IMG/VR virus record: IMGVR_UViG_3300037585_003199
Location: 1 to 20,348 of that record
DNA: 20,348 nucleotides
Source: a virus
Direction: 5' to 3' (one strand)
In this document: positions 4,289-15,927 of the stretch, in pieces
Numbering within the stretch: position 1 is the first letter of the stretch
How the letters are laid out: each line of letters begins with the position of its first letter
The notes under the pieces: model-generated
Told to the model about the DNA's origin: nothing
Database searches by the model: none
What the model saw: only the letters and a program-made list of their open reading frames with translations
Program-made: the position numbers and the translations under genes

Positions 4289-5969
4289 ACTAAATAACGA
4301 ATACAACATCCCTACGCACAGATTAAAGGATGGAACGCAAAAAACTAAATGTCCAGAATGTCAGCCAGAACATAACCCCAGAGATAACCCGCTATCGGTT
4401 ACTTTGGAGCCGGATAAAATATTATTTAACTGTCATCACTGCGGATTTCAGGGCGGAGTGATAGAGCCATCTTTAAGCGTAATTCCAACCAGACGGCCAA
4501 AGCCAGAGCCAGTAACCTATCTAGCGAAACCATCCACATTCCTTGATTCCTATTTTAACAAGCGGGGCATCTCGCGTGAGACCTATGAATCATTCAACAT
4601 TTTTACTGACGACAACGAATGGATCGGATTTCCATACAACGGTCATCACGGACAATGCGACAACATAAAACACCGGACTCCAGATAAGCAATTCAGACAA
4701 ACAAAGAACGGGAAGAAAAGCCTCTACAATTACGACAGGGTTAAAGACTCAAAGGTGGTGGTGTTTGTTGAGGGCGAGATTGATGCGCTAAGCGTCTTTG
4801 AGGCGGGGATTGAATCGGTCACTACGCTACCAGATGGCGCTCCCCCTAATGTCACTTACAAGGAGAATGATAAAAGGTTTGGATGCCTTCAAACTCATCC
4901 TGTAAAAGCGGACAAGATAATATTGTTCTGTGATTCCGATGGGGCGGGTGAAAATCTGCGGAAGGAACTTTTGCACCGATACGGAAAAGAAAAGTGCTGG
5001 TACGTCAAAGCGCCGGAAGAATGCAAGGATGCAAATGATGTTCTGGTAAAACACGGGGCGCAGAGATTAAGGGAGCTAATAGACCAAGCAATACCTTATC
5101 CAGTTGACGGACTGTATACTGCATCCAGATATGCAACTGATGTACTTGATTTGTACCACGGAAGATATGACAGACCTATTAAAATTGGCTACCCATCCTT
5201 AGACAAGATTTACAAAGTAATGAAGGGTACGTTTCATGTGTGGACGGGAATCCCGAATCATGGCAAATCTACCTTTCTTGACCAATGCCTGATTGAGCTT
5301 TCTAAAAACTACAACTGGAAATTTGCCGTCTTTAGCCCAGAGCATTCATCAAAGATGCACATTAGAAGGCTGGCATCCATGATGCTTGGCAAATCATTTG
5401 ATAGCGGCTACCAAGGCCGAATGTCTGAGGAAGAATTAAAACAGGCTATTAACTGGATACATGGACGCTTTTTCTTTATAGAGACTAGGGAGCATACGCC
5501 AAACATTACCCGAATCCTTGATATTGCCAAAGGCGCGATACAAAAGTTCGGTTGCAATGGGCTGGTTATTGACCCGTACAATGAAGTAGATGCAAGCAGG
5601 GCTGGGAAGTACCGCGAGGACGAGCATATCAGAGACTTTATTAGTCTTAATAAGAGGTTTTGCAAATTGCACGATGTAACCACTTGGGTTGTAGCGCATC
5701 CGACCAAAATGCCAAAGCAGGATAGCGGCGGCTATGCTCCTCCGACTGCTTACGACATTAGTGGCGCTGCTCACTGGCACAACCAATCTGATGCTGTTGT
5801 TACAGTCCACAGGGATTTTGAAACCAACACTATCAGAGTGATAACGAGGAAGATAAGAGAGCAAGGCTTGTATGGGCAAATCGGAGAGGCATCGTTTTGC
5901 TTCAATGAAAACACGCGCTGTTTTGAGGAGCCTGTTGCTCCAGTAATTGCCACTGATCATCACTGGTAA
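4272..5969 (+). CDS. Primase-helicase (T7 gp4-like)
   Basis: This 565-residue replicative protein has all the parts of bifunctional phage primase-helicases. A zinc ribbon occupies the N-terminus (Cys27, Cys30, Cys54, Cys57). A TOPRIM primase domain follows, with E-G-E-I-D-A-L-S from residue 167 and the D-S-D motif at 221-223. The C-terminal RecA-like DnaB-type helicase has Walker A G-I-P-N-H-G-K-S-T at 326-334 and a Walker B-like V-I-D ending at Asp434. It is expected to unwind DNA 5'-3' and lay down primers at the fork. Its start overlaps the upstream initiator-like gene and its stop runs into the nuclease gene. No DNA polymerase gene lies in the window. Confidence 0.93.
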   Translation: MNLLDKLNNEYNIPTHRLKDGTQKTKCPECQPEHNPRDNPLSVTLEPDKILFNCHHCGFQGGVIEPSLSVIPTRRPKPEPVTYLAKPSTFLDSYFNKRGISRETYESFNIFTDDNEWIGFPYNGHHGQCDNIKHRTPDKQFRQTKNGKKSLYNYDRVKDSKVVVFVEGEIDALSVFEAGIESVTTLPDGAPPNVTYKENDKRFGCLQTHPVKADKIILFCDSDGAGENLRKELLHRYGKEKCWYVKAPEECKDANDVLVKHGAQRLRELIDQAIPYPVDGLYTASRYATDVLDLYHGRYDRPIKIGYPSLDKIYKVMKGTFHVWTGIPNHGKSTFLDQCLIELSKNYNWKFAVFSPEHSSKMHIRRLASMMLGKSFDSGYQGRMSEEELKQAINWIHGRFFFIETREHTPNITRILDIAKGAIQKFGCNGLVIDPYNEVDASRAGKYREDEHIRDFISLNKRFCKLHDVTTWVVAHPTKMPKQDSGGYAPPTAYDISGAAHWHNQSDAVVTVHRDFETNTIRVITRKIREQGLYGQIGEASFCFNENTRCFEEPVAPVIATDHHW

Positions 5970-5973
5970 TGAT

Positions 5974-6294
5974 GTGAAGAAATCAAAAGGGGAAGAAAGT
6001 CTGGCAATCTTGTTGAAACATCACGGGATACCCTTTAAGAGAGAAGTCAGATTTCACGAAAGCCGTCGCTGGAGATTTGATTTTGTTATTTGTTCTATCA
6101 GGAAAATAGCCGTTGAGGTTGAAGGAGGGACGTTCTCAGGAGGAAGGCATACCCGACCTATGGGTTATGCTGGGGATTTAGAAAAGTACAACGCAGCGGC
6201 TCTGCTGGGCTGGACGGTGTTGAGGTATACGACAGCCCAAATAGGGGATAAAGCTATCGGGGAAATTAGGGGGTTATATGATTCCAAGAAATAA
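5974..6294 (+). CDS. PD-(D/E)XK endonuclease (Vsr/resolvase-like)
   Basis: This 106-residue protein from GTG 5974 (a TTG at 5947 is possible but lies inside the helicase gene) reads KKSKGEESLAILLKHHG, then W-R-F-D-F, then A-V-E-V-E-G-G and G-R-H-T-R-P, and later Y-N-A-A-A-L-L-G-W-T-V-L-R. The order E, D, ExE with a final helix and strand matches the compact PD-(D/E)XK fold of Vsr-like and Holliday-junction-resolvase-like enzymes. I recall near-identical motif strings in phage proteins placed beside helicases. The likely role is cutting branched or mismatched DNA during replication and recombination. The exact substrate is unknown. Confidence 0.8.
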   Translation: MKKSKGEESLAILLKHHGIPFKREVRFHESRRWRFDFVICSIRKIAVEVEGGTFSGGRHTRPMGYAGDLEKYNAAALLGWTVLRYTTAQIGDKAIGEIRGLYDSKK

Positions 6295-6701: not shown

Positions 6702-7259
6702 TTAATACCCTTCTTGGTGGTATCGCTTCTGCTTGTACCAGAGCTTGCTGCCGGACTTCCCTTTGCCGGTCTGAGGCTTATGCTTAGTCTTGAATATCTT
6801 TTTGACGTGCTTAACCTCATGGGCATAGGAGTGTTTGACTGCATCCAGTAAAGGGTCTAGCTCTATTTTGAAGTCCGAATATCCCTCCGCTATCCCGTGT
6901 AGGTATTGATGGGGCGGCGGGTTAATATCGTGTTGGCGGTTCATAATGTAGACCATTACTTGTTCGTGTCCAGCCAGCGGGTGGTCTTGAGGAATCTTGA
7001 CCAGCTCCTTTCGGTAGAAGCTAGGCGCTCCCTCATACACATCAAGGCGATGTTCGCAGTCTTTTGTAACCTGCCACAGTCCCAACATAACCGAGCTTCC
7101 TTCTGATTTCTCAATGTCCGCAACACCCCTGAATCGTAGTGCGAAGTCTTGCAACTCCAGCACTCCAACCGCTTCCGCATTTGGGCATCTGTAAGCCATC
7201 TGCCTAAAGCTAAGATTGGAACCATAGGCTCCGTATAAATAGGGTCTAAATTTTTTCAT
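6702..7259 (-). CDS. Gamma-glutamylcyclotransferase-like (GGCT/AIG2) protein
   Basis: This 185-residue protein has the GGCT signature at the N-terminus (Y-G-A-Y-G-S-N-L, residues 9-16) and the conserved acidic segment D-V-Y-E-G-A-P-x-x-Y, where Glu76 would be the catalytic general acid/base. The family releases 5-oxoproline from gamma-glutamyl amides or reverses isopeptide-type links. The last 50 residues form a basic, Lys-rich tail (KIFKTKHKPQTGKGKSG) that the usual enzyme lacks and that may bind nucleic acid or the virion. Its ATG overlaps the stop of the amidoligase gene as TAATG, so the two are made together; the pairing fits a ligase plus a trimming enzyme. The substrate is unknown. Confidence 0.85.
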   Translation of the reverse strand: MKKFRPYLYGAYGSNLSFRQMAYRCPNAEAVGVLELQDFALRFRGVADIEKSEGSSVMLGLWQVTKDCEHRLDVYEGAPSFYRKELVKIPQDHPLAGHEQVMVYIMNRQHDINPPPHQYLHGIAEGYSDFKIELDPLLDAVKHSYAHEVKHVKKIFKTKHKPQTGKGKSGSKLWYKQKRYHQEGY

Positions 7260-8293
7260 TAGTTTAACTCCTCATCTCTTTCTTGCATCCAGTTTTGGAC
7301 ATCTTGTGTAATGCCATCAAACAATCCTGTGTCTGTGGTTTGCGCTTCTGCCATCCAGCCTAGCTCTCGCAATTTACGCTCAATCTTATTTCTGCTAAAA
7401 GCGTTGTGATCGTTAGGGCCATCGTACATTGCTTCCATTTCAGTGTAGTTAAAAATTGCAAAATCATCAGTTGGTCTGTGAATCCAGCGAAATCCTCTGC
7501 CTCTCATCCACTCAACTGTTACTTTATTTTCATCAGCTATCTTTCTAACCGCATCATAAGCAACGCTCTTACGAGCTTTGATCTGCTTGGGAGCGCTGTT
7601 ACCATTGCGCTGAAGCCTGATGCTAGTCTCAACAAACTGCATCAAGAAAGTGAGCCACTTTGAAATCTTGGTAAAATCAGTGGTTCCGCTATGCTGACGA
7701 AATTCAATACTGCCTCGGTCAGCCACATTGGTAAGGTTAATCTTGTAGTATCTACCAATCGCATAAGCGAGGTCTCTCTTCTCTCTGGTGGTGCGGCCAT
7801 CTTGGATTGCTCCGTTACCGGCTGTATCAATGGCTCTCTTAATTGAATCAACAGAACCAGTTATTGAGTTAGCCCATCGGCTATTGCCTCTGCGAGACCG
7901 TGGCATAATGTTATCAATGGAATCCTCAAAACTAGCGTACCTCTCAAAGACCCTACCAATCTCGCCAATGGTCATATCGCGTGAATCCAAGTGAACGTGT
8001 AATCCGCAACTTCTATTAACGTGCAAACCTTGGACACTATTGAGAGCTTCGGTAACTTTCTTCAAAGCCTCAAGTCCAGCTTCACCCTGTAAGATGGGGC
8101 TTACAACTTCACCGCACCCATCTCTGTGAGAGAGGCTGGCATCTGTAACCACTTTCCAGTGGTCGCGGGTAATGTGGTTGTAGCTTTCTACAGCACAATC
8201 AATTCCTGCATCTCGTATTGCTTGGGCAACCTGCCCGTTTCTAGCTCCAACAAACTCAATCTCTATACCGAAACCTCTGTTTGAAATTGCCAT
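7259..8293 (-). CDS. Phage amidoligase (glutamine-synthetase-like ligase)
   Basis: This 344-residue protein belongs to the amidoligase_2 family, which has a glutamine-synthetase-like fold and is predicted to form amide bonds at the cost of ATP. Visible motifs are G-I-E-I-E-F near the N-terminus (metal-binding Glu pair), D-A-S-L followed by C-G-E-V-V-S-P, C-G-L-H-V-H-L-D, and S-I-E-F-R-Q-H-S-G-T in the middle. The C-terminal third is specific to this protein. The start has AGAGGAG about ten bases upstream and a promoter-like pair at 8348-8375. With the downstream cyclotransferase-like gene it forms the pair described for phages by comparative genomics. Proposed targets there are cell-wall peptides, small metabolites or proteins. 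Confidence 0.88.
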   Translation of the reverse strand: MAISNRGFGIEIEFVGARNGQVAQAIRDAGIDCAVESYNHITRDHWKVVTDASLSHRDGCGEVVSPILQGEAGLEALKKVTEALNSVQGLHVNRSCGLHVHLDSRDMTIGEIGRVFERYASFEDSIDNIMPRSRRGNSRWANSITGSVDSIKRAIDTAGNGAIQDGRTTREKRDLAYAIGRYYKINLTNVADRGSIEFRQHSGTTDFTKISKWLTFLMQFVETSIRLQRNGNSAPKQIKARKSVAYDAVRKIADENKVTVEWMRGRGFRWIHRPTDDFAIFNYTEMEAMYDGPNDHNAFSRNKIERKLRELGWMAEAQTTDTGLFDGITQDVQNWMQERDEELN

Positions 8294-8463: not shown

Positions 8464-9036
8464 ATGACTCTCAAGCAGCAGATAAGATTAGTGTCCACTG
8501 ACAGCCTCATTCCTTACGACAGAAATCCGAGGATTCACCCAGATAGCCAGATAGAGCAGCTTAAAAACAGCATCCGACAATGGGGATGGACAATTCCAAT
8601 CTTGATAGATGAAAACGACCAAGTTATCGCTGGTCACGGAAGATTGTTTGCCGCGCAAGGTCTGGAGATGGAATCCGTACCTTGTATTACTGCGGAAGGC
8701 TGGAGTGATGAACAAAAGAAAGCCTATGTCATTGCTGATAACAAACTGGCAGAAGGAGGTGAATGGGATTCAGGTCTGTACTTTTCGGAATTAAAAGCAA
8801 TTAATGAAAAAGGGTTTAATCTGGAGCTGGTTGGCTTTGATTCCAGCATCTCTCTTGATTTTGAGCCAAACCTTGACCCCTCTACATCATTTGCAGATGT
8901 AAGTGAGAGCGATATTGGAGATGCAAAATCTTCTATGTCCGACAACATGGATAAGCTAACAGGAGATAGATCGGCAAAAGGGACTAATGTTATGTGTCCG
9001 TTTTGTGCTGAATCTTTTACTTTTGATGGAATATGA
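8464..9036 (+). CDS. ParB-domain protein with C-terminal zinc-ribbon-like tail
   Basis: This 190-residue protein starts MTLKQQIRLVSTDSLIPYD. Residues about 8-95 form a ParB/Srx-type N-terminal domain: I-P-Y-D-R-N-P-R, H-P-D-S-Q-I-E-Q-L-K-N-S-I, then V-I-A-G-H-G-R (G57-R60), the nucleotide-binding/catalytic patch, and A-Y-V-I-A-D-N-K-L-A. There is no centromere-binding HTH, so it is not a partition protein. The last residues carry M-C-P-F-C, half of a zinc ribbon. Related single-domain ParB proteins sit beside DNA methylase and terminase genes in many phages, and some have CTPase or nuclease activity. AGGAG lies six bases ahead of the ATG. It heads the accessory block. Confidence 0.87.
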   Translation: MTLKQQIRLVSTDSLIPYDRNPRIHPDSQIEQLKNSIRQWGWTIPILIDENDQVIAGHGRLFAAQGLEMESVPCITAEGWSDEQKKAYVIADNKLAEGGEWDSGLYFSELKAINEKGFNLELVGFDSSISLDFEPNLDPSTSFADVSESDIGDAKSSMSDNMDKLTGDRSAKGTNVMCPFCAESFTFDGI

Positions 9037-9079
9037 AAACGCCGGATTATAAAGCACCGTTTTAATTCATGGGGTTGAT

Positions 9080-9334
9080 GTGAAATACATAATGAGAACC
9101 TGTGCTGGTAGGGAAAATTACGCAGAGTATTTGCACTATAAACTACCAGAGCTGATTGAATTAAAGGATGAGAGCTTTGACCCGATGAAAAATTTTATGA
9201 ATGCGCTAGAGGTTGCTGAAGATGATGAAGCAATCCATCTTGAGGACGATGCTATTTTGGCTAACGACTTCAGGCGAAGGCCGGAAAAGTCATTGATGCA
9301 AATCCCAATATGGTCATTCAGTTTTTCTCTATGA
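9080..9334 (+). CDS. Glycosyltransferase-like protein, N-terminal half (frameshifted)
   Basis: From GTG 9080 (GGGG five bases upstream) the frame reads MKYIMRTCAGRENYAEY and then A-I-H-L-E-D-D-A-I-L, an acidic motif like the metal-binding D-x-D of glycosyltransferases. After D-F-R-R-R-P-E-K at about residue 70 it leaves the family pattern and stops at 9334. The missing C-terminal half continues in the -1 frame (GTCATTGAT at about 9289). From memory the intact protein is a common phage protein of about 185 residues, so this is one gene in two pieces. A single lost A in CGAAGG (9274-9279) or a -1 slip at GAA-AAG would explain it. Confidence 0.75.
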   Translation: MKYIMRTCAGRENYAEYLHYKLPELIELKDESFDPMKNFMNALEVAEDDEAIHLEDDAILANDFRRRPEKSLMQIPIWSFSFSL

Positions 9335-9633
9335 GGAAGGCTGATTTAACTGTAGGCACAAGGATTGAAAATGGCTCAACTTTTCTTGCCGCACTTTGTT
9401 TTTACCTTCCCCCGAAAATGAGCAGAGGCTTGAGGTCATACTTTCCTAACTGGGAAAGGCGGGATGAGCATCCTACAGGGTTAGATTTAACTATTGCTGA
9501 TTATCTTAAAAAGACCAAGCAAAAGTATCTGATACATTGCCCTAATTTAGCCGATCACAGGGTTGGTAAATCAAAAATAGACAGTAGACGCTCATCAAAG
9601 AGAGTCAGCCTTACATTTGAACATCCAGCGTGA
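9310..9633 (+). CDS. Glycosyltransferase-like protein, C-terminal half (frameshifted)
   Basis: This is the -1 frame continuation of the preceding gene; the related sequence really begins at about 9289 (V-I-D-A-N-P-N-M), upstream of the listed ATG, which has no good ribosome site. It includes V-I-Q-F-F-S-M-R-K-A-D-L, an F-Y-L-P-P-K-M block, P-T-G-L-D-L-T-I-A-D-Y-L and a final D-H-R...S-S-K-R segment, all in the order I expect for the intact family member. The stop overlaps the next gene's GTG. If no frameshift product is made, this piece is unlikely to be functional alone. Confidence 0.65.
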   Translation: MVIQFFSMRKADLTVGTRIENGSTFLAALCFYLPPKMSRGLRSYFPNWERRDEHPTGLDLTIADYLKKTKQKYLIHCPNLADHRVGKSKIDSRRSSKRVSLTFEHPA

Positions 9634-10232
9634 AAACCCAGCGTAACAAGACCCTTTATCATTCTGCTCTTAAAAAAGGCTCAATTACTTATGGCAATGT
9701 AAATGAGACTTTAAGGGCTGACCATCCGAAAGGGGTGATGATAAAGAATGATATTATTGCTGATGGCCTGCCTTTGGAGTTTGAGGAATGTGATGTTCTT
9801 TACGCTGAGCCGCCTTGGCCTCATGGATTTAAGGTTTTCAATGAAAGAGCCGGAGTTACAGGTATATCCTATAGCGACTTAGCTGATGCAATAGCCAAAA
9901 TAATACTGCAAAGCAAGATTCCTGTTTATCTTCTTATGTGGAAACCGCTGTTAAACAAACTCCCTGCCCCTCAAGAATTGCACGAAACAGTATTACATGG
10001 GGGAGATGCGTTGGTAGGCATATGGAATGATAGTTATCTTGGCTCATGCGAATCGGCAAATGTGATATGTCAAACACTGGGGACTAAGTATAAATGTTTC
10101 GGTGATTTTACTTGTGGATATGGTGCTTGTGTAGCTGATTTTATGGATGGGGGTGGTAAGCGTTTTGTTGCATCTGATTATGACGGAAAGTGCATTACGG
10201 TTATGTCGGCAAGAATGAAAAAAATTATATGA
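9630..10232 (+). CDS. DNA methyltransferase-like protein (permuted, EPPW motif)
   Basis: This 200-residue protein starts at GTG 9630 inside the preceding stop (GTGA). It shows D-V-L-Y-A-E-P-P-W-P-H-G-F, where E-P-P-W (60-63) matches the catalytic D-P-P-W/Y motif IV of amino-methyltransferases. Near the C-terminus it has G-D-F-T-C-G-Y-G-A-C-V (from 158), a motif I-like S-adenosylmethionine loop followed by the acidic A-S-D-Y. The order IV before I is that of permuted (beta-type) adenine or cytosine-N4 methylases. It is short and lacks a clear target-recognition domain. The leading Asp is replaced by Glu, so activity is uncertain. It lies between the sugar-transferase-like and IbrA-like genes. 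Confidence 0.7.
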   Translation: MKTQRNKTLYHSALKKGSITYGNVNETLRADHPKGVMIKNDIIADGLPLEFEECDVLYAEPPWPHGFKVFNERAGVTGISYSDLADAIAKIILQSKIPVYLLMWKPLLNKLPAPQELHETVLHGGDALVGIWNDSYLGSCESANVICQTLGTKYKCFGDFTCGYGACVADFMDGGGKRFVASDYDGKCITVMSARMKKII

Positions 10233-11398
10233 AAATATTCTTAAAACAGAATGTCTGGGATGCTGCTTACGAAAGAATATCCTATCTTTTCAAGGAGTTT
10301 GACGAGGTAGTAGTGGCGTTTAGCGGAGGCAAGGACAGCACTGTAACGCTTGAGATGGCGCTGTTGGTCGCTGAGGAGCAAGGGAAACTACCTCTGAAGG
10401 TGATGTGGATTGACCAAGAGGCCGAATGGCAAGCGGTTGCATCTTACACAAAAAAGGTAATGTACCGAGATACTGTAATCCCTCACTGGCTGCAAGTCCC
10501 AATAAAGCTCTTTAACGCAACTACGATGGATTATCCTTGGCTGAATTGCTGGGCAGAAGATGAAAAATGGATGCGAGAAAAAGACCCTGTCAGCATCAAG
10601 ACCAATGATTACGGTACGGATAGATTTTTTAATATGTTTCCCGCTTACCTTAAAAAGCACTACAGCGGCAAATCAGTGGCGTTGCTGGGAGGGGTGAGAG
10701 CCGAAGAAAGCCCAAGACGGCGAGCAGGGATGACTCTTGACGCGACCTACAAGGATATAACTTGGGGCAAAATCTACGATAGAGACGAGGGGCATTATGT
10801 TTTCTATCCTTTCTATGATTGGAGCTACACCGATATATGGAAAGCAATCCACGATAACAAGTGGGATTACTGTCCTATCTATGACGAGTTTTATCGGTAT
10901 GGCATAGCGCCCTACAAAATGCGGGTATCAAATCTTCATCATGAAACGGCGGTTGACCAGTTGTTTTATCTGCACGAACTGGAGGGGAAAACTTGGGATG
11001 CGCTTACTCAGAGATTAAAAGGCATAAATCAAGCAAAGCATATGGAGAAATCCGATATGTTCAGGGCTGATGAGTTGCCGTTTATGTTTAACGATTGGCG
11101 AGAATACAGGGATCATTTGCTTGAAAACCTTATAAGAGATAAGGGGTTTAGGAAGAAGATAGAAAAGAAACACAAATTGATGGACTTAAAATTCAGTGGC
11201 ATGGACAGAATAGAAGAGATGTATAAGGCTCAAATTTTAGGGATTCTTGCTAATGACTTTGAGTTCACCAAAATAAAAAATTTTGAGGGCAGACCTGAAG
11301 CCGTCAATTTTCATAAATTCAAGCGCGGATTAGATGTTAACTGGAACAGGCCGGAAAAAGATTTACGGTTTATCAAGCCAGAACAGAGAGGGAAGTGA
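10229..11398 (+). CDS. IbrA-like PAPS-reductase-family PP-loop protein
   Basis: This 389-residue protein uses the ATG at 10229, which overlaps the methyltransferase stop as ATGA; an upstream ATG at 10190 lies inside that gene. The PP-loop S-G-G-K-D-S (32-37) binds ATP/PAPS-type nucleotides. It is followed by W-I-D-Q-E-A-E-W, a central G-G-V-R-A-E-E-S-P-R-R-R segment and the Trp/Tyr-rich Y-P-F-Y-D-W-S-Y-T-D-I-W. This order matches the DUF3440 group that includes Escherichia coli IbrA. No Cys motif for iron-sulphur is seen. The next gene is an IbrB-like ParB protein, reproducing the ibrA-ibrB pair. The chemistry is unknown; AMP-transfer or sulphur activation are possible. Confidence 0.85.
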   Translation: MKIFLKQNVWDAAYERISYLFKEFDEVVVAFSGGKDSTVTLEMALLVAEEQGKLPLKVMWIDQEAEWQAVASYTKKVMYRDTVIPHWLQVPIKLFNATTMDYPWLNCWAEDEKWMREKDPVSIKTNDYGTDRFFNMFPAYLKKHYSGKSVALLGGVRAEESPRRRAGMTLDATYKDITWGKIYDRDEGHYVFYPFYDWSYTDIWKAIHDNKWDYCPIYDEFYRYGIAPYKMRVSNLHHETAVDQLFYLHELEGKTWDALTQRLKGINQAKHMEKSDMFRADELPFMFNDWREYRDHLLENLIRDKGFRKKIEKKHKLMDLKFSGMDRIEEMYKAQILGILANDFEFTKIKNFEGRPEAVNFHKFKRGLDVNWNRPEKDLRFIKPEQRGK

Positions 11399-11983
11399 GT
11401 GAGCATTAAAGATCATCCAGTAAGTGATGTCATGTGGGTTCCTGTGGATATGGTGGAACCTAATGACTATAACCCTAACTCAATCGCTGGGACGGAAATG
11501 AAATTGCTCTACACAAGCATTAAGCATGACGGGTATACGCAGCCGGTAGTCACTATTTGGGATGAAGAAAAACAGAAGTACGTTATCGTGGACGGCTTTC
11601 ATCGTTACTTTATTGCATTGAATAACAAGGACATAAGGGAAAGCACAGAGAACAATGTCCCTATAGTGGTTATTAAGAAAGATGTGAACGAAAGAATGGC
11701 CTCAACTATTAGGCACAATCGGGCTAGGGGGAAACACTCTATAGGAGGAATGTCTAGCATGGTGTTCAGTATGTTAGATAACGGATGGAAGGATGCAGAA
11801 ATATGTAATCACCTCGGTATGGAACCTGATGAATTGCTAAGGCTCAAGCATATTACCGGCTTTTCAAAGTTGTTTGCTGATACCGAATACAACAAGGCTT
11901 GGGTTTCCAAACATCAGATAAGGTTAAAAAAGGCTCAAAAAGGCGACGGAGAGCATCCTAATAGAAGTCCGGCAGTATCCTAA
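11399..11983 (+). CDS. IbrB-like ParB-domain protein
   Basis: This 194-residue protein starts at the GTG directly after the IbrA-like stop, with GAGGGA six bases upstream. The ParB/Srx domain shows V-D-M-V-E-P-N-D-Y-N-P-N, then S-I-K-H-D-G-Y-T-Q-P-V-V, then V-D-G-F-H-R (D65-R69 region), and an R-H-N-R-A-R-G segment followed by a helical part with L-G-M-E-P-D-E-L-L-R-L, which may act as a helix-turn-helix. Escherichia coli IbrB is a ParB-like partner of IbrA, and the two are found together in prophages; they activate eib surface genes by an unknown route. Whether this pair regulates, modifies or defends is open. Confidence 0.85.
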   Translation: MSIKDHPVSDVMWVPVDMVEPNDYNPNSIAGTEMKLLYTSIKHDGYTQPVVTIWDEEKQKYVIVDGFHRYFIALNNKDIRESTENNVPIVVIKKDVNERMASTIRHNRARGKHSIGGMSSMVFSMLDNGWKDAEICNHLGMEPDELLRLKHITGFSKLFADTEYNKAWVSKHQIRLKKAQKGDGEHPNRSPAVS

Positions 11984-12055: not shown

Positions 12056-12616
12056 ATGGCTAAAAAATTAACAGATGAATTAGAAATAACCATCAGGGAT
12101 GAGTTCATTCATGGTTATATGAACGGGGATGGAGAACGAGTCTATCCCACTATTGACGGGCTTGTATCTAAGCATGGTGTGGGCAGGGCTACCCTATACC
12201 AAAGAGCAAAAGACGATGGATGGCAAACGCTAAAGAACCGCTATCAGACCGAGCTGCGAGAGCAGATTGATAATGAGCGCATGGAACGGGCGATTGAGAA
12301 TGCAAAAACACTGGATGACACCTGTATGCAGCTCGCTCAAGCCATGCTAAACGGGGTCGGTAGGCGTTTACAGAAGGCCATTGAAGAGGAAAGAAACGAC
12401 CCTGAGTACAAAGGTTTAGAGGCTCATATACTGAGCCACTTATCCGCGACAACGGCTACCGCTCAGAAGATCGGCAAGTTGGCGCTTGGGCAAGCACAAG
12501 AAATTTCAAAGGTGGCGGCAGATGTCAGCAATCCTGAATCCTTCAGAAGAATTATGGAACAACTGGACGAACTTGCGGAGGCAAGGTCACAGGAGTACGG
12601 CGACTCTATACACTGA
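12056..12616 (+). CDS. terS: Small terminase subunit (predicted)
   Basis: This 186-residue protein is placed directly before the large terminase and overlaps it. It has an N-terminal helix-turn-helix: R-V-Y-P-T-I-D-G-L-V-S-K-H-G-V-G-R-A-T-L-Y-Q-R-A-K is a classic HTH with the sequence-recognition helix after G-V-G. The middle (60-150) is coiled-coil-like and helical, as in oligomeric small terminases, which bind the pac or cos site and load the large subunit. The C-terminal tail is acidic and would contact the large subunit. The ribosome site is weak. Family membership rests on the layout and position rather than on a unique motif. Confidence 0.8.
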   Translation: MAKKLTDELEITIRDEFIHGYMNGDGERVYPTIDGLVSKHGVGRATLYQRAKDDGWQTLKNRYQTELREQIDNERMERAIENAKTLDDTCMQLAQAMLNGVGRRLQKAIEEERNDPEYKGLEAHILSHLSATTATAQKIGKLALGQAQEISKVAADVSNPESFRRIMEQLDELAEARSQEYGDSIH

Positions 12617-13823: not shown

Positions 13824-15562
13824 TGGCTCTATTTGAGGATATGTTAAACAGGTTCCGGCGCAAACCAGCGATGGATTTGAAACAGGCTGGAGCAATGGTT
13901 GGGTATTTCGGGGTTGGGTCAACAACTACCAAAATGTTTCAGTACGAGGACTTGGCGCGGGAAGGGTATTTAAGGAATGCTATTGTTTATCGCTGTGTCA
14001 ACGAAATTTCAAAAGGCGCTTCATCTGTTCCGTTTGTCCTAAAGTCTGGCGATGACGCTTTAGAAAGCCATCCTGTTATTTCTTTGCTTGATAGGCCAAA
14101 TCCTCAGCAAAGCTATTCTGAGTTCTTTACTGCTCTCTATGGGTATCTGTTATTGAGCGGGAACGCTTACATACTCAAGGTTGCTGGGGCAAGGGGAGTG
14201 CCTAAAGAGCTACATCTTTTAAGGCCGGATAGAATAGAGATTAAAGGCAAAGGGGGCAGTGTATTCCCTGAAATATATGAATATCGTGTAAATGGGAGCC
14301 TAAAGGCATCCTATGAAGTAGACCAAGACACTGGGTTTTCAGAGCTGAAGCAAGTTAAGTTATGGCATCCTATGGATGATTATTACGGCTGCTCTCCTCT
14401 AACAGCGGCAGCTATGGAGGTTGATCAGCACAATTCAGCCACAAAGCACAATATCAATCTGTTAGAAAATGGAGCAAGACCAAGCGGGGCGGTAGTATTC
14501 AAGCCGCAAGATGATGCGGGTTATCAAATGCAGCTCTCTGATTCTCAGCGACAGCAGTTACTCACTGATCTAAATACCCGCTTTACAGGCAGCAAGAACG
14601 CTGGCAGACCTATGCTGTTGGAAGGAGACTTTGATTGGAAAGAAATGGGCCTTTCTCCAAAAGATATGGACTTTCTCAACCTAAAACACATGAGCGCCAC
14701 TGACATTGCGATGTGTTTTGGGGTTCCGAGCCAGTTAGTCGGAGTGCCGGATGCCCAAACCTACAGCAACGTAGCAGAGGCAAGATTGGCGCTTTATGAG
14801 GAAACAATCATTCCCTATTTAAGAAAAGTAGAGTCTGACTTAAACGAGTGGCTGGTTCCGCAGTTTAATGAAGATTTCAAATTTGAATACGACATTGATA
14901 AAATACCAGCTTTATCAGAAAGAAGGCGGCTTATCTATGAAAACGTAATAGGGGCTGTAGATAAAGGAATCATGACTCGCAACGAAGCGCGAGAGCTGGT
15001 TGGGCTTAACCCGATGGAAGGAGCCGATGACTTGCTGGTTCCTGCTAATCTGTTTCCTTTAAACGAAGGACCACCGCCGGAGCCTGAAAGAGTGGACGAT
15101 GAGGACGATATAGCCCAGTACGAGGAGGAAGAAGAGGAAGAAGAGGAAAATATAACCAACTTCCCGTCAGCAGGGCAGAACAAAACAATATCTTTAAAAA
15201 ACAGCAACTTCCCGCAGTTTGATTATAAGTTTGCGGAAGTAATGGCGAAAGACGAATCAAAAGCCGGAAAACTGCTCTGGAAAAAAGGGGATGAGGCTAG
15301 TAACCATGCTTATAGCCAATGGTCTAAAGCAAGGCAGGGGTCACAGGCATCCGAGGTAAGAGAGTGGATTAAAAGGCGGGAAGAAAGATGCGTTAAGCAT
15401 AACGGAGGTCTTACTTCTAACGGCATCGCGCTTGAAGAAGTGATGGATTTGGTCAAATGGGGAGTCATTAACACTGGCCTTGGGGAGAAAGGAATGAAAA
15501 AGACCATATTGGAGGCCGCACAAAAACTGGAAATAAAGAAATGGGGGATCGTTAAATCATGA
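13823..15562 (+). CDS. HK97-family portal protein with long acidic C-terminal extension
   Basis: This 579-residue protein starts at ATG 13823, overlapping the terminase stop; an upstream in-frame ATG at 13808 lies inside terL. Residues 1-about 410 are a normal HK97-type portal: Y-R-C-V-N-E-I-S-K-G-A, L-L-S-G-N-A-Y-I, L-W-H-P-M-D-D-Y-Y-G-C-S-P-L, and the D-F-K-W-E/D-W-K-E-M and Q-L-V-G-V-P segments. The family usually ends here. Instead there is a Pro/Glu-rich linker with nine consecutive Glu (434-442) and a final helical domain of about 130 residues with E-V-R-E-W-I-K-R-R-E-E-R and L-V-K-W-G-V-I-N-T-G-L-G-E-K-G-M-K. The extension may be a scaffold or adaptor function fused to the portal. Confidence 0.92.
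   Translation: MALFEDMLNRFRRKPAMDLKQAGAMVGYFGVGSTTTKMFQYEDLAREGYLRNAIVYRCVNEISKGASSVPFVLKSGDDALESHPVISLLDRPNPQQSYSEFFTALYGYLLLSGNAYILKVAGARGVPKELHLLRPDRIEIKGKGGSVFPEIYEYRVNGSLKASYEVDQDTGFSELKQVKLWHPMDDYYGCSPLTAAAMEVDQHNSATKHNINLLENGARPSGAVVFKPQDDAGYQMQLSDSQRQQLLTDLNTRFTGSKNAGRPMLLEGDFDWKEMGLSPKDMDFLNLKHMSATDIAMCFGVPSQLVGVPDAQTYSNVAEARLALYEETIIPYLRKVESDLNEWLVPQFNEDFKFEYDIDKIPALSERRRLIYENVIGAVDKGIMTRNEARELVGLNPMEGADDLLVPANLFPLNEGPPPEPERVDDEDDIAQYEEEEEEEEENITNFPSAGQNKTISLKNSNFPQFDYKFAEVMAKDESKAGKLLWKKGDEASNHAYSQWSKARQGSQASEVREWIKRREERCVKHNGGLTSNGIALEEVMDLVKWGVINTGLGEKGMKKTILEAAQKLEIKKWGIVKS
15123..15149 (+). repeat. GAR-codon tract encoding nine glutamates
   Basis: A run of nine GAG/GAA codons within the portal gene forms a low-complexity purine tract. 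The mixture of GAG and GAA indicates selection on the acidic peptide rather than a simple slippage array. It joins the portal core to its C-terminal domain. Confidence 0.85.
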
Positions 15563-15927
15563 CTCAGCCTTTTTATTACGTTGCAAAAATAGACAGAATT
15601 GTTGATGGCGACACCATAGATATAAACTTAGACCTTGGCTTTAAAATTATCCTTATAAAACAGCGAGTTAGGCTCGCAGGAATAGACACCCCAGAAAGCA
15701 GGACTCGCAACAAAAAAGAAAAGGTAATGGGTCTAGCTGCCAAGGAGCGATTAAGGGAGTTGTGCGGGGAAGAAATCTTGCTTCAATCGCTTGGAAGGGG
15801 CAAATATGGCCGCATACTGGGCATCCCTCTAACCAAGAAAGACGGCAAGAATATTTGTTCCATGCTCATCAATGAAGGACACGCTGTTGAATACTGGGGC
15901 GGTAAAAAAACTCACAAATGGGCTTAA
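15559..15927 (+). CDS. Staphylococcal-nuclease-like (thermonuclease) protein
   Basis: This 122-residue SNase-fold protein has K-I-D-R-I-V-D-G-D-T (metal Asp18 and neighbour), then R-V-R-L-A-G-I-D-T-P-E (Arg38, Asp43, Glu46) and later G-K-Y-G-R-I-L-G (Arg85). These correspond to the two catalytic arginines, the metal Asp and the general-base Glu, all present. It has no signal peptide, so it acts in the cell or the virion. The ATG overlaps the portal stop as ATGA and its end lies inside the MuF gene, so it is part of the head operon. It may degrade host or competitor DNA or process ends; the target is unknown. Confidence 0.9.
   Translation: MTQPFYYVAKIDRIVDGDTIDINLDLGFKIILIKQRVRLAGIDTPESRTRNKKEKVMGLAAKERLRELCGEEILLQSLGRGKYGRILGIPLTKKDGKNICSMLINEGHAVEYWGGKKTHKWA

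Follow-up and report, generated by a model that had tools for sequence, protein, structure and literature searches.

In many environmental phages, a constant frame of three genes, encoding ParB1, IbrA and IbrB, lies beside the terminase genes and encloses a slot in which enzyme sets are swapped between close relatives. In the window, as we call the complete 20,348-nucleotide viral stretch analysed here, the five genes of this cassette stand head to tail on the plus strand at 8464-11983, as the initial annotation had it. The left anchor, ParB1 (8464..9036), has a ParB/Srx fold and a C-terminal CPxC motif. It is followed by two cargo genes, for a small GT-A-like glycosyltransferase (GT; 9080..9633) and a protein resembling beta-class DNA methyltransferases (MT; 9630..10232), then by the right anchor, the PP-loop adenylyltransferase-like IbrA of 388 amino acids (10229..11398), and by its obligate partner IbrB (11399..11983), again of ParB/Srx fold and with a conserved DGFHR motif. 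With the last two, a PAPS-reductase/PP-loop gene directly followed by a ParB-fold gene of the IbrB family, the window carries an IbrA-IbrB pair. The coupled starts described previously are found as GTGA at 9630, ATGA at 10229 and TGA|GTG at 11396-11401. Two corrections concern the start of IbrA, which alignment with relatives places at ATG 10229 instead of GTG 10190, and a frameshift in GT, whose frame is interrupted near 9269 by a one-base deletion. GT is thereby split over two overlapping ORFs in different frames (9080-9334 and 9310-9633), so that six ORFs are seen in a block of five genes. The split results from one T fewer than in a sister contig (L002), in which GT is a single intact ORF of 184 amino acids; as this copy differs only by that T and reads through, programmed frameshifting is rejected. 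Unless the missing base is an error of assembly, the broken GT frame may leave the cassette of the window with only the product that depends on the methylase.

On the minus strand, the cassette has a divergent neighbour, an Amidoligase_2 gene (7259..8293; PF12224, 3.7e-38), and the partner of the latter, a gamma-glutamyl cyclotransferase-like gene (6702..7259; PF06094, 1.8e-6). Amidoligase_2 is a frequent but not obligatory companion, found within 7 kb of IbrA in 17 of 36 IbrA-led loci, and the cyclotransferase-like gene occurs in 14 of the 36. Directly 3' of the cassette, and outside it, lies a small terminase-like gene (12056..12616, plus strand), a call that rests on its place before TerL and on an order kept in relatives, the match of its product to the terminase small subunit family phrog_1206 reaching only 0.07. 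A DNA-level search of phage records with the window gave no matches. At the level of gene families, joint occurrence was scored from five search directions, IbrA-led viral loci being counted where the flank sufficed. Both IbrB and an upstream ParB of the ParB1 type were present in 36/36 of these loci, and IbrA stood beside the cargo in 32/32 loci led by OX, a hydroxylase-like slot family, in 34/35 led by GT and in 6/6 led by MT. Bacterial loci had IbrB near IbrA in all 55 testable cases. The independent occurrence that would have spoken against a joint block was thus looked for, and the genes were together almost without exception.

The contents of the slot, which is the gap between ParB1 and IbrA, vary among close relatives: GT with a methylase, as in the window, GT with a hydroxylase-fold protein, GT with GNAT, GNAT with a methylase, or two methylases. 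The exchange is gene-precise, with the sets swapped as units. One pair of relatives (L046 and L128) is 86% identical across ParB1 and most of the slot gene c0, and 96% identical from base one of IbrA onwards, GT-OX having given way to GNAT-MT; a second pair (L010 and L013) shows 98% identity from 12 bases 5' of IbrA, and a third (L047 and L048) 93% up to the end of ParB1 and 95% from the start of IbrA. On the IbrA tree, at least 20 changes among MT, OX and GNAT are seen. The combinations obey a pathway-like logic, OX being accompanied by GT in 21/21 cases (p=3e-8) and never by MT (p=2e-7) or GNAT (p=9e-4). Only c0 or no recognised cargo was present in 20 of 88 cassettes, and bacterial IbrA-IbrB pairs are mostly without ParB1 and cargo, which indicates that the core genes are useful by themselves, too.

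The rapid swapping, the methyltransferase fold, the GNAT and hydroxylase-fold alternatives in the slot and the ParB partners all speak for, without proving, the DNA-modification pathway proposed initially. We regard it as an evenly balanced proposition that the cassette is a hypervariable, diversifying phage locus for DNA modification directed against restriction, with DNA as the substrate we infer. Against it weigh the cassettes and bacterial pairs without cargo, the EPPW motif of MT, the middling fold matches of OX, the wider range of targets of GT, GNAT and hydroxylases, and the lack of a thymidylate-synthase-type enzyme in the records searched, all taken up in this account. Rather unlikely, to our mind, is a hot spot of recombination between ParB1 and IbrA that collects unrelated genes of the anti-restriction or moron kind (DNA methylases, GTs, acetyltransferases), while IbrA, IbrB and ParB1 serve another purpose, for instance in packaging or DNA segregation. 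Such a hot spot would fit with the replacement of whole sets between conserved flanks, and with cassettes that have no recognised cargo and bacterial pairs that have none. However, a general hot spot would not restrict the OX and GT families almost entirely to the vicinity of IbrA, and the fixed gene order, the strict company of OX and the overlap of start and stop codons between cargo and IbrA argue against it as well.

What can be said about the cargo enzymes themselves? As MT of the window finds no match in Pfam or PHROGs, its class was assigned by profile and fold: the family profile matches M1.HpyAVI (5e-9), the AF2 model (pLDDT 89.8) resembles M1.HpyAVI, MboIIA and M.BceJIV with Z about 11, and motif IV precedes the SAM motif in the alignment. 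MT is thus predicted to have the Rossmann-type fold and motif order of the beta-class DNA N6-A/N4-C methyltransferases. The catalytic motif of this class is [DNS]PP[YFW]; in the MT family, DPPW is found in 24/40 and EPP(W/F/Y) in 11/40 members, and with EPPW in place of DPPW, the catalysis of the window protein may be lost or changed. GT gave no Pfam match in the window and no credible match in the PDB profile search, but 23 of 24 family members match phrog_854 'glucosyltransferase' (best 2e-11), and this, together with an acidic DxD-like motif (IHLEDD, with invariant E55 and D57), points to a glycosyltransferase of GT-A type. A double-stranded beta-helix and an invariant HxD...H characterise OX; Pfam and PHROGs yielded nothing useful for it, the PDB profile search no credible match, and its fold matches are middling (Z 7-8), the nearest being proline-3-hydroxylase (Z 8.2), together with a hydroxylase of nucleoside antibiotics at Z 8.1. 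GNAT has the fold of Mom, the DNA-modifying enzyme of Mu (PMC7824862). Among 50,697 isolate phage records, neither the OX family nor the window-type methylase family found a match, and the broad alignments of MT and c0 were too poorly conserved to provide patterns for scanning.

The toolkit of base modification in phages consists of GNAT, GT, hydroxylase-fold and methyltransferase enzymes, and proteins, glycans and small molecules, too, are substrates of GT, GNAT and hydroxylases. We nevertheless consider it unlikely that the cassette decorates a target other than DNA, be it a virion protein, a host surface glycan or a nucleotide signal, by transfer of methyl, acetyl, hydroxyl or sugar groups. 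For such a target speak the presence of GTs, GNAT, GalE and an FkbM-like protein in pathways of glycans, too, the amino-acid and protein hydroxylases among the nearest hydroxylase folds, and the gamma-glutamyl enzymes adjoining the cassette. Against it, the same slot accommodates a beta-class DNA-methyltransferase fold, and two partners have a ParB fold. Moreover, unlike the lipid-linked enzymes of surface glycans, the cargo is almost devoid of membrane segments, with none in GT, OX, MT and GNAT bar one outlier each in GT and GNAT, which also disfavours seroconversion of surface glycans.

Of the anchors, ParB1 matches PF02195 (2e-6) and phrog_620 (1e-48), and among the families closest to it is the ParB portion of fusions between ParB and a DNA methyltransferase (phrog_498, 1e-43; PADLOC MTase_II, 8e-31). 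Its CPxC is kept in at least 85% of 80 relatives, as is the DGFHR of IbrB, a match of phrog_2159 (8e-70), in at least 85% of 52. ParB-fold proteins are also used by the Dnd and Dpd DNA-modification systems (PMC12839542). IbrA matches PF01507 (1.6e-16) and phrog_2302 (3e-79), and the window copy is 35% identical to proteins annotated as putative IbrA. SGGKDS and GxRxxES are kept in at least 90% of 49 aligned IbrA sequences, and a P-x-x-DW-x-x-x-D-I-W motif is conserved as in PP-loop adenylating enzymes. In the PDB profile search, the best solved relatives are CysD (2.6e-10) and FAD synthase (4e-9), with CysH below both and no DndC structure among the matches. PAPS reductase (CysH) is marked by a catalytic cysteine near the C terminus; this hallmark is not conserved in the IbrA alignment, in which no column exceeds 61% Cys over the 49 sequences, the window copy having two cysteines in total. 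Judged by its motifs and relatives, IbrA is predicted to be an adenylating enzyme of the PP-loop type, like CysD and FAD synthase. The lack of a conserved cysteine and the kinship to CysD and FAD synthase leave the activated-sulphur chemistry of the initial annotation, as in DndC or CysH, unsupported; in the literature we found, no chemistry is reported for IbrA-IbrB.

If the cassette is a DNA-modification locus, ParB1 and IbrB, with their nucleotide-binding, DNA-associated ParB/Srx fold, would recruit the enzymes to the phage DNA at a late stage of replication or during packaging. At the expense of ATP, IbrA would adenylate a group on the DNA or close to it, yielding an activated handle, and the slot enzymes would then methylate, glycosylate, acylate or hydroxylate the DNA bases or this handle. 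Different enzyme sets would yield different decorations, and thereby a moving target for host restriction or modification-sensing nucleases. Going further, and only tentatively, we suggest that IbrA, aided by IbrB and ParB1, could carry out a previously unknown, ATP-dependent modification of DNA by adenylation-type chemistry, a universal handle which the exchangeable sets decorate, so that a single phage lineage could switch between DNA coats; in bacteria, IbrAB would then represent this chemistry in its bare form.

The same two families, closely linked, are known from enterobacterial prophages, and databases label relatives 'co-activator of prophage gene expression'. Transcriptional co-activation of surface genes in the host or a prophage, the role for which IbrA-IbrB were named in Escherichia coli, would make the neighbours incidental; it agrees with bacterial pairs often standing alone, and regulation of surface genes, the alternative raised earlier, is conceivable for bacterial IbrAB. 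As an account of the cassette it is very improbable, however, as it leaves the cargo slot, the linkage to ParB1 in viral contigs and the conserved enzyme motifs of IbrA unexplained, and DNA modification could itself bring about regulation. Phosphorothioation systems (Dnd, Ssp, BREX-4) likewise link a PP-loop enzyme and a ParB-superfamily protein, DndC and DndB, to DNA modification (PMC10853773, PMC12839542), but DndC requires an Fe-S cluster on three cysteines and a cysteine dyad (PMC10853773), which IbrA does not have, and the cassette has swappable cargo. A phosphorothioation-like phage system, with IbrA as DndC and IbrB as DndB, is hardly credible and already disfavoured: the same two folds are paired and IbrA has weak DndC profile matches (TIGR03183, 3e-4; PADLOC, 9e-7), but the DndC-type cysteines are missing, no DndD/E was seen, and no desulfurase appeared among the slot gene families.

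With Mu Mom and phage hypermodification clusters, the DNA-modification locus proposed here would share GNAT, GT, hydroxylase-fold and methyltransferase enzymes. A thymidylate-synthase-type enzyme is a route to hydroxymethylated pyrimidines; unlike those clusters, 23 records, including the 97-kb isolate Hendrix, contain no such enzyme, many of the records possibly being fragments. A further difference is the swapping of alternative enzyme sets in a single slot flanked by the constant genes for ParB1 and IbrA. Phage base-modification operons were reportedly surveyed by Iyer and colleagues in 2013, and we found no description of the cassette in the openly accessible papers searched. Going by the available part of its description, a Mu-like phage from cryoconite has a comparable 2-kb variable region in its packaging module, with ParB, TerS and TerL, which holds two, one or no DNA methyltransferases or, in the same place, an acetyltransferase; in that part, IbrA is not named and the region is treated as flexible methyltransferase genes (PMC7468147). 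These population data, independent of ours, speak for the DNA-modification reading. Pairs of IbrA and IbrB occur widely among phages and bacteria, and a role as the fixed frame of a swapping locus would give them a concrete, testable function. If true, phages would thereby diversify the chemistry of their DNA, and the locus would be a source of novel DNA-modifying enzymes. Related gene sets are present in isolated phages of Microbacterium, Mycobacterium, Arthrobacter and Bacillus; the Microbacterium phages Hendrix, Rasputia and Leaf vary in the number and order of their GT genes, and the Mycobacterium phage Athena lacks any recognised cargo enzyme. It is in such cultured phages that the proposed function can be tested.

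What holds this block together, and on which substrate might it act? Re-reading of the window, a 20,348-base IMG/VR virus record, places five genes on the plus strand at the positions given in the initial annotation, with two corrections: ParB1 (8464-9036), a glycosyltransferase-like gene (GT, 9080-9633), a methylase-like gene (MT, 9630-10232), IbrA (10229-11398) and IbrB (11399-11983). The coupled starts described there, overlaps GTGA and ATGA and an abutting TGA and GTG, are all present. The frame of GT is broken, as it has one T fewer than the single 184-aa frame of the sister contig L002 and hence appears as two overlapping ORFs, and alignment with relatives sets the start of IbrA at ATG 10229. 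Upstream lie an amidoligase and a gamma-glutamyl cyclotransferase gene (6702-8293, minus strand), a pair that diverges from the cassette and recurs next to it in roughly half of the relatives found through IbrA (best 80 of more than 500); small-terminase-like, large-terminase-like and portal genes follow on the 3' side. A DUF559/phrog_503-like small nuclease-related protein (5947-6294) adjoins the primase-helicase gene, and by eye a small staphylococcal-nuclease-like protein (15559-15927) lies between portal and head genes, with a similar one in the relative L007 (821-1198, minus strand).

The cassette, comprising ParB1, a variable slot of cargo genes, IbrA and IbrB, is jointly conserved. Per-gene profiles were run on loci fetched from several independent directions, and the counts cover distinct loci flanked on each side by 3.5 kb or more. 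Of over 500 relatives the IbrA and IbrB scans took the best 80, and cassettes supplied the seed profiles, so the sample leans to the window's relatives. Within these best 80, all 36 IbrA-led loci carry both IbrB and ParB1, together with GT (20), MT (15), the hydroxylase-like OX (10), the acetyltransferase-fold GNAT (9), the small protein c0 (27), TerL (24) and amidoligase (17), and the 24 IbrB-led loci carry IbrA in every case and ParB1 in 23. Searches from the cargo lead back to the same frame: IbrA and IbrB occur in 32/32 OX-led loci (GT in 31), IbrA in 34/35 GT-led loci, and IbrA, IbrB and ParB1 each in 6/6 MT-led loci. In bacterial genomes IbrA accompanies IbrB in 55/55, but just 7 have ParB1, and most kinds of cargo are rare. 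In some bacterial genomes (L177, L187, L189, L203, L223) a GNAT gene lies between the two, which suggests that acyl transfer could recur as a partner outside phages as well.

Two new facts stand out most: ParB1, IbrA and IbrB form a constant frame, and within it enzyme sets are exchanged with gene precision. The slot draws on c0, GT, a second GT type, MT, OX and GNAT, rarely on GalE or an FkbM-like protein, and holds at least one enzyme in 68 of 88 cassettes from IbrA/IbrB-led (best 80 of more than 500) and bacterial loci only. In the IbrA/IbrB-led and bacterial loci OX accompanies GT in 21/21 cases (Fisher p=3e-8), and never MT (p=2e-7) or GNAT (p=9e-4). The last slot gene, directly 5' of IbrA, is MT in 28, OX in 21 and GNAT in 13, a state that requires at least 20 changes over 55 rows of the IbrA tree; on independent pairs, gain of OX is associated positively with GT (median p 0.004) and negatively with MT (median p 0.016). 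Whole sets are replaced at fixed junctions: loci L046 and L128 share 86% identity across ParB1 and the greater part of c0, then 96% from the very start of IbrA onward, but between these stretches one holds GT-OX and the other GNAT-MT, sets without detectable similarity. In L010 and L013 (MT-MT versus GT-OX) 98% identity restarts 12 bases 5' of IbrA, L047 and L048 agree as far as ParB1 extends and again from the first base of IbrA, and L022/L023, L082/L138 and L109/L106 show a like pattern.

Among the slot families, GT matches phrog_854 glucosyltransferase in 23 of 24 members. The window MT gave no match in Pfam and PHROG searches; its family profile matches the H. pylori adenine methyltransferase M1.HpyAVI (5e-9), CcrM and others, and its AlphaFold model (mean pLDDT 89.8; Foldseek was also run) superposes on MboIIA, M.BceJIV and M1.HpyAVI with Z of about 11 (142-161 residues aligned, 2.8-3.5 A). 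As motif IV reads EPPW in the window copy and DPPW in 24/40 family members, catalytic activity, likely in the family at large, is uncertain in this copy. OX, absent from the window, has an invariant HxD and a distal histidine, and its model (pLDDT 93.8) finds double-stranded beta-helix neighbours at middling values (proline-3-hydroxylase, Z 8.2; nucleoside-antibiotic hydroxylase, Z 8.1). The roughly 100-aa c0 has the look of an adapter module in common use, being fused elsewhere to an S-adenosylmethionine-decarboxylase-like domain (L007:3181-3837; PF02675, 3.7e-9), a hint that some cassettes may involve polyamine or decarboxylation chemistry, to a SET domain with an integrase arm-type DNA-binding domain (L113:3697-4707) and to a class I SAM methyltransferase (L121:3306-4136); similarly long c0 proteins occur at L078:4746-5387, L129:3315-3989 and L143:2733-3374.

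The proposal of a DNA or nucleoid modification pathway stands in part, favoured by joint conservation and the DNA-methyltransferase fold, while its activated-sulphur chemistry is not supported. In IbrA, SGGKDS, GxRxxES and a PxxDWxxxDIW stretch are conserved and no cysteine is, whereas the published hallmarks of DndC are three cysteines holding an Fe-S centre plus a dyad of cysteines (PMC10853773), and in a profile search of solved structures CysD (2.6e-10) and FAD synthase (4e-9) rank above PAPS reductase (9e-5) and LarE (2e-3). Lacking counterparts of these hallmarks, IbrA is disfavoured for sulphur transfer, and adenylation is the natural guess. We see about an even chance that the cassette would work as a phage DNA-modification locus. 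DNA is suggested as substrate because a DNA-methyltransferase fold is among those that occupy the slot, because GNAT is the fold of the DNA-base-modifying Mu Mom (PMC7824862), because Dnd and Dpd DNA-modification systems likewise have ParB-superfamily partners (PMC12839542), because the cassette precedes packaging genes, because cargo proteins are almost always without membrane segments, and because rapid exchange is expected under anti-restriction pressure. ParB1 and IbrB both have the ParB/sulfiredoxin fold by profile, and among the families that ParB1 matches are ParB domains in fusions with phage DNA methyltransferases. A pre-made hydroxymethyl base is disfavoured, since 23 records, many of them possibly fragments, hold no thymidylate-synthase-type enzyme; as far as fragments allow, this argues for modification after replication.

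According to a metagenome study, packaging-module DNA methyltransferases of a Mu-like phage are gained and lost, with an acetyltransferase in their place (PMC7468147), similar to the behaviour of the slot, and an M. abscessus prophage was noted to carry cysteine-dioxygenase-like and PAPS-reductase-like genes three genes apart (PMC8092301). Among cultured phages, Microbacterium phages Hendrix, Rasputia and Leaf hold related sets with GTs, acetyltransferase, methyltransferase and IbrA; in Hendrix the series continues past the genome end with IbrB, two more ParB genes and TerL. Mycobacterium phage Athena has ParB, two small genes, IbrA, IbrB and terminase, Arthrobacter phage Salgado has ParB, IbrA, IbrB, methyltransferase and terminase, and a related set is present in Bacillus phage 031MP003.
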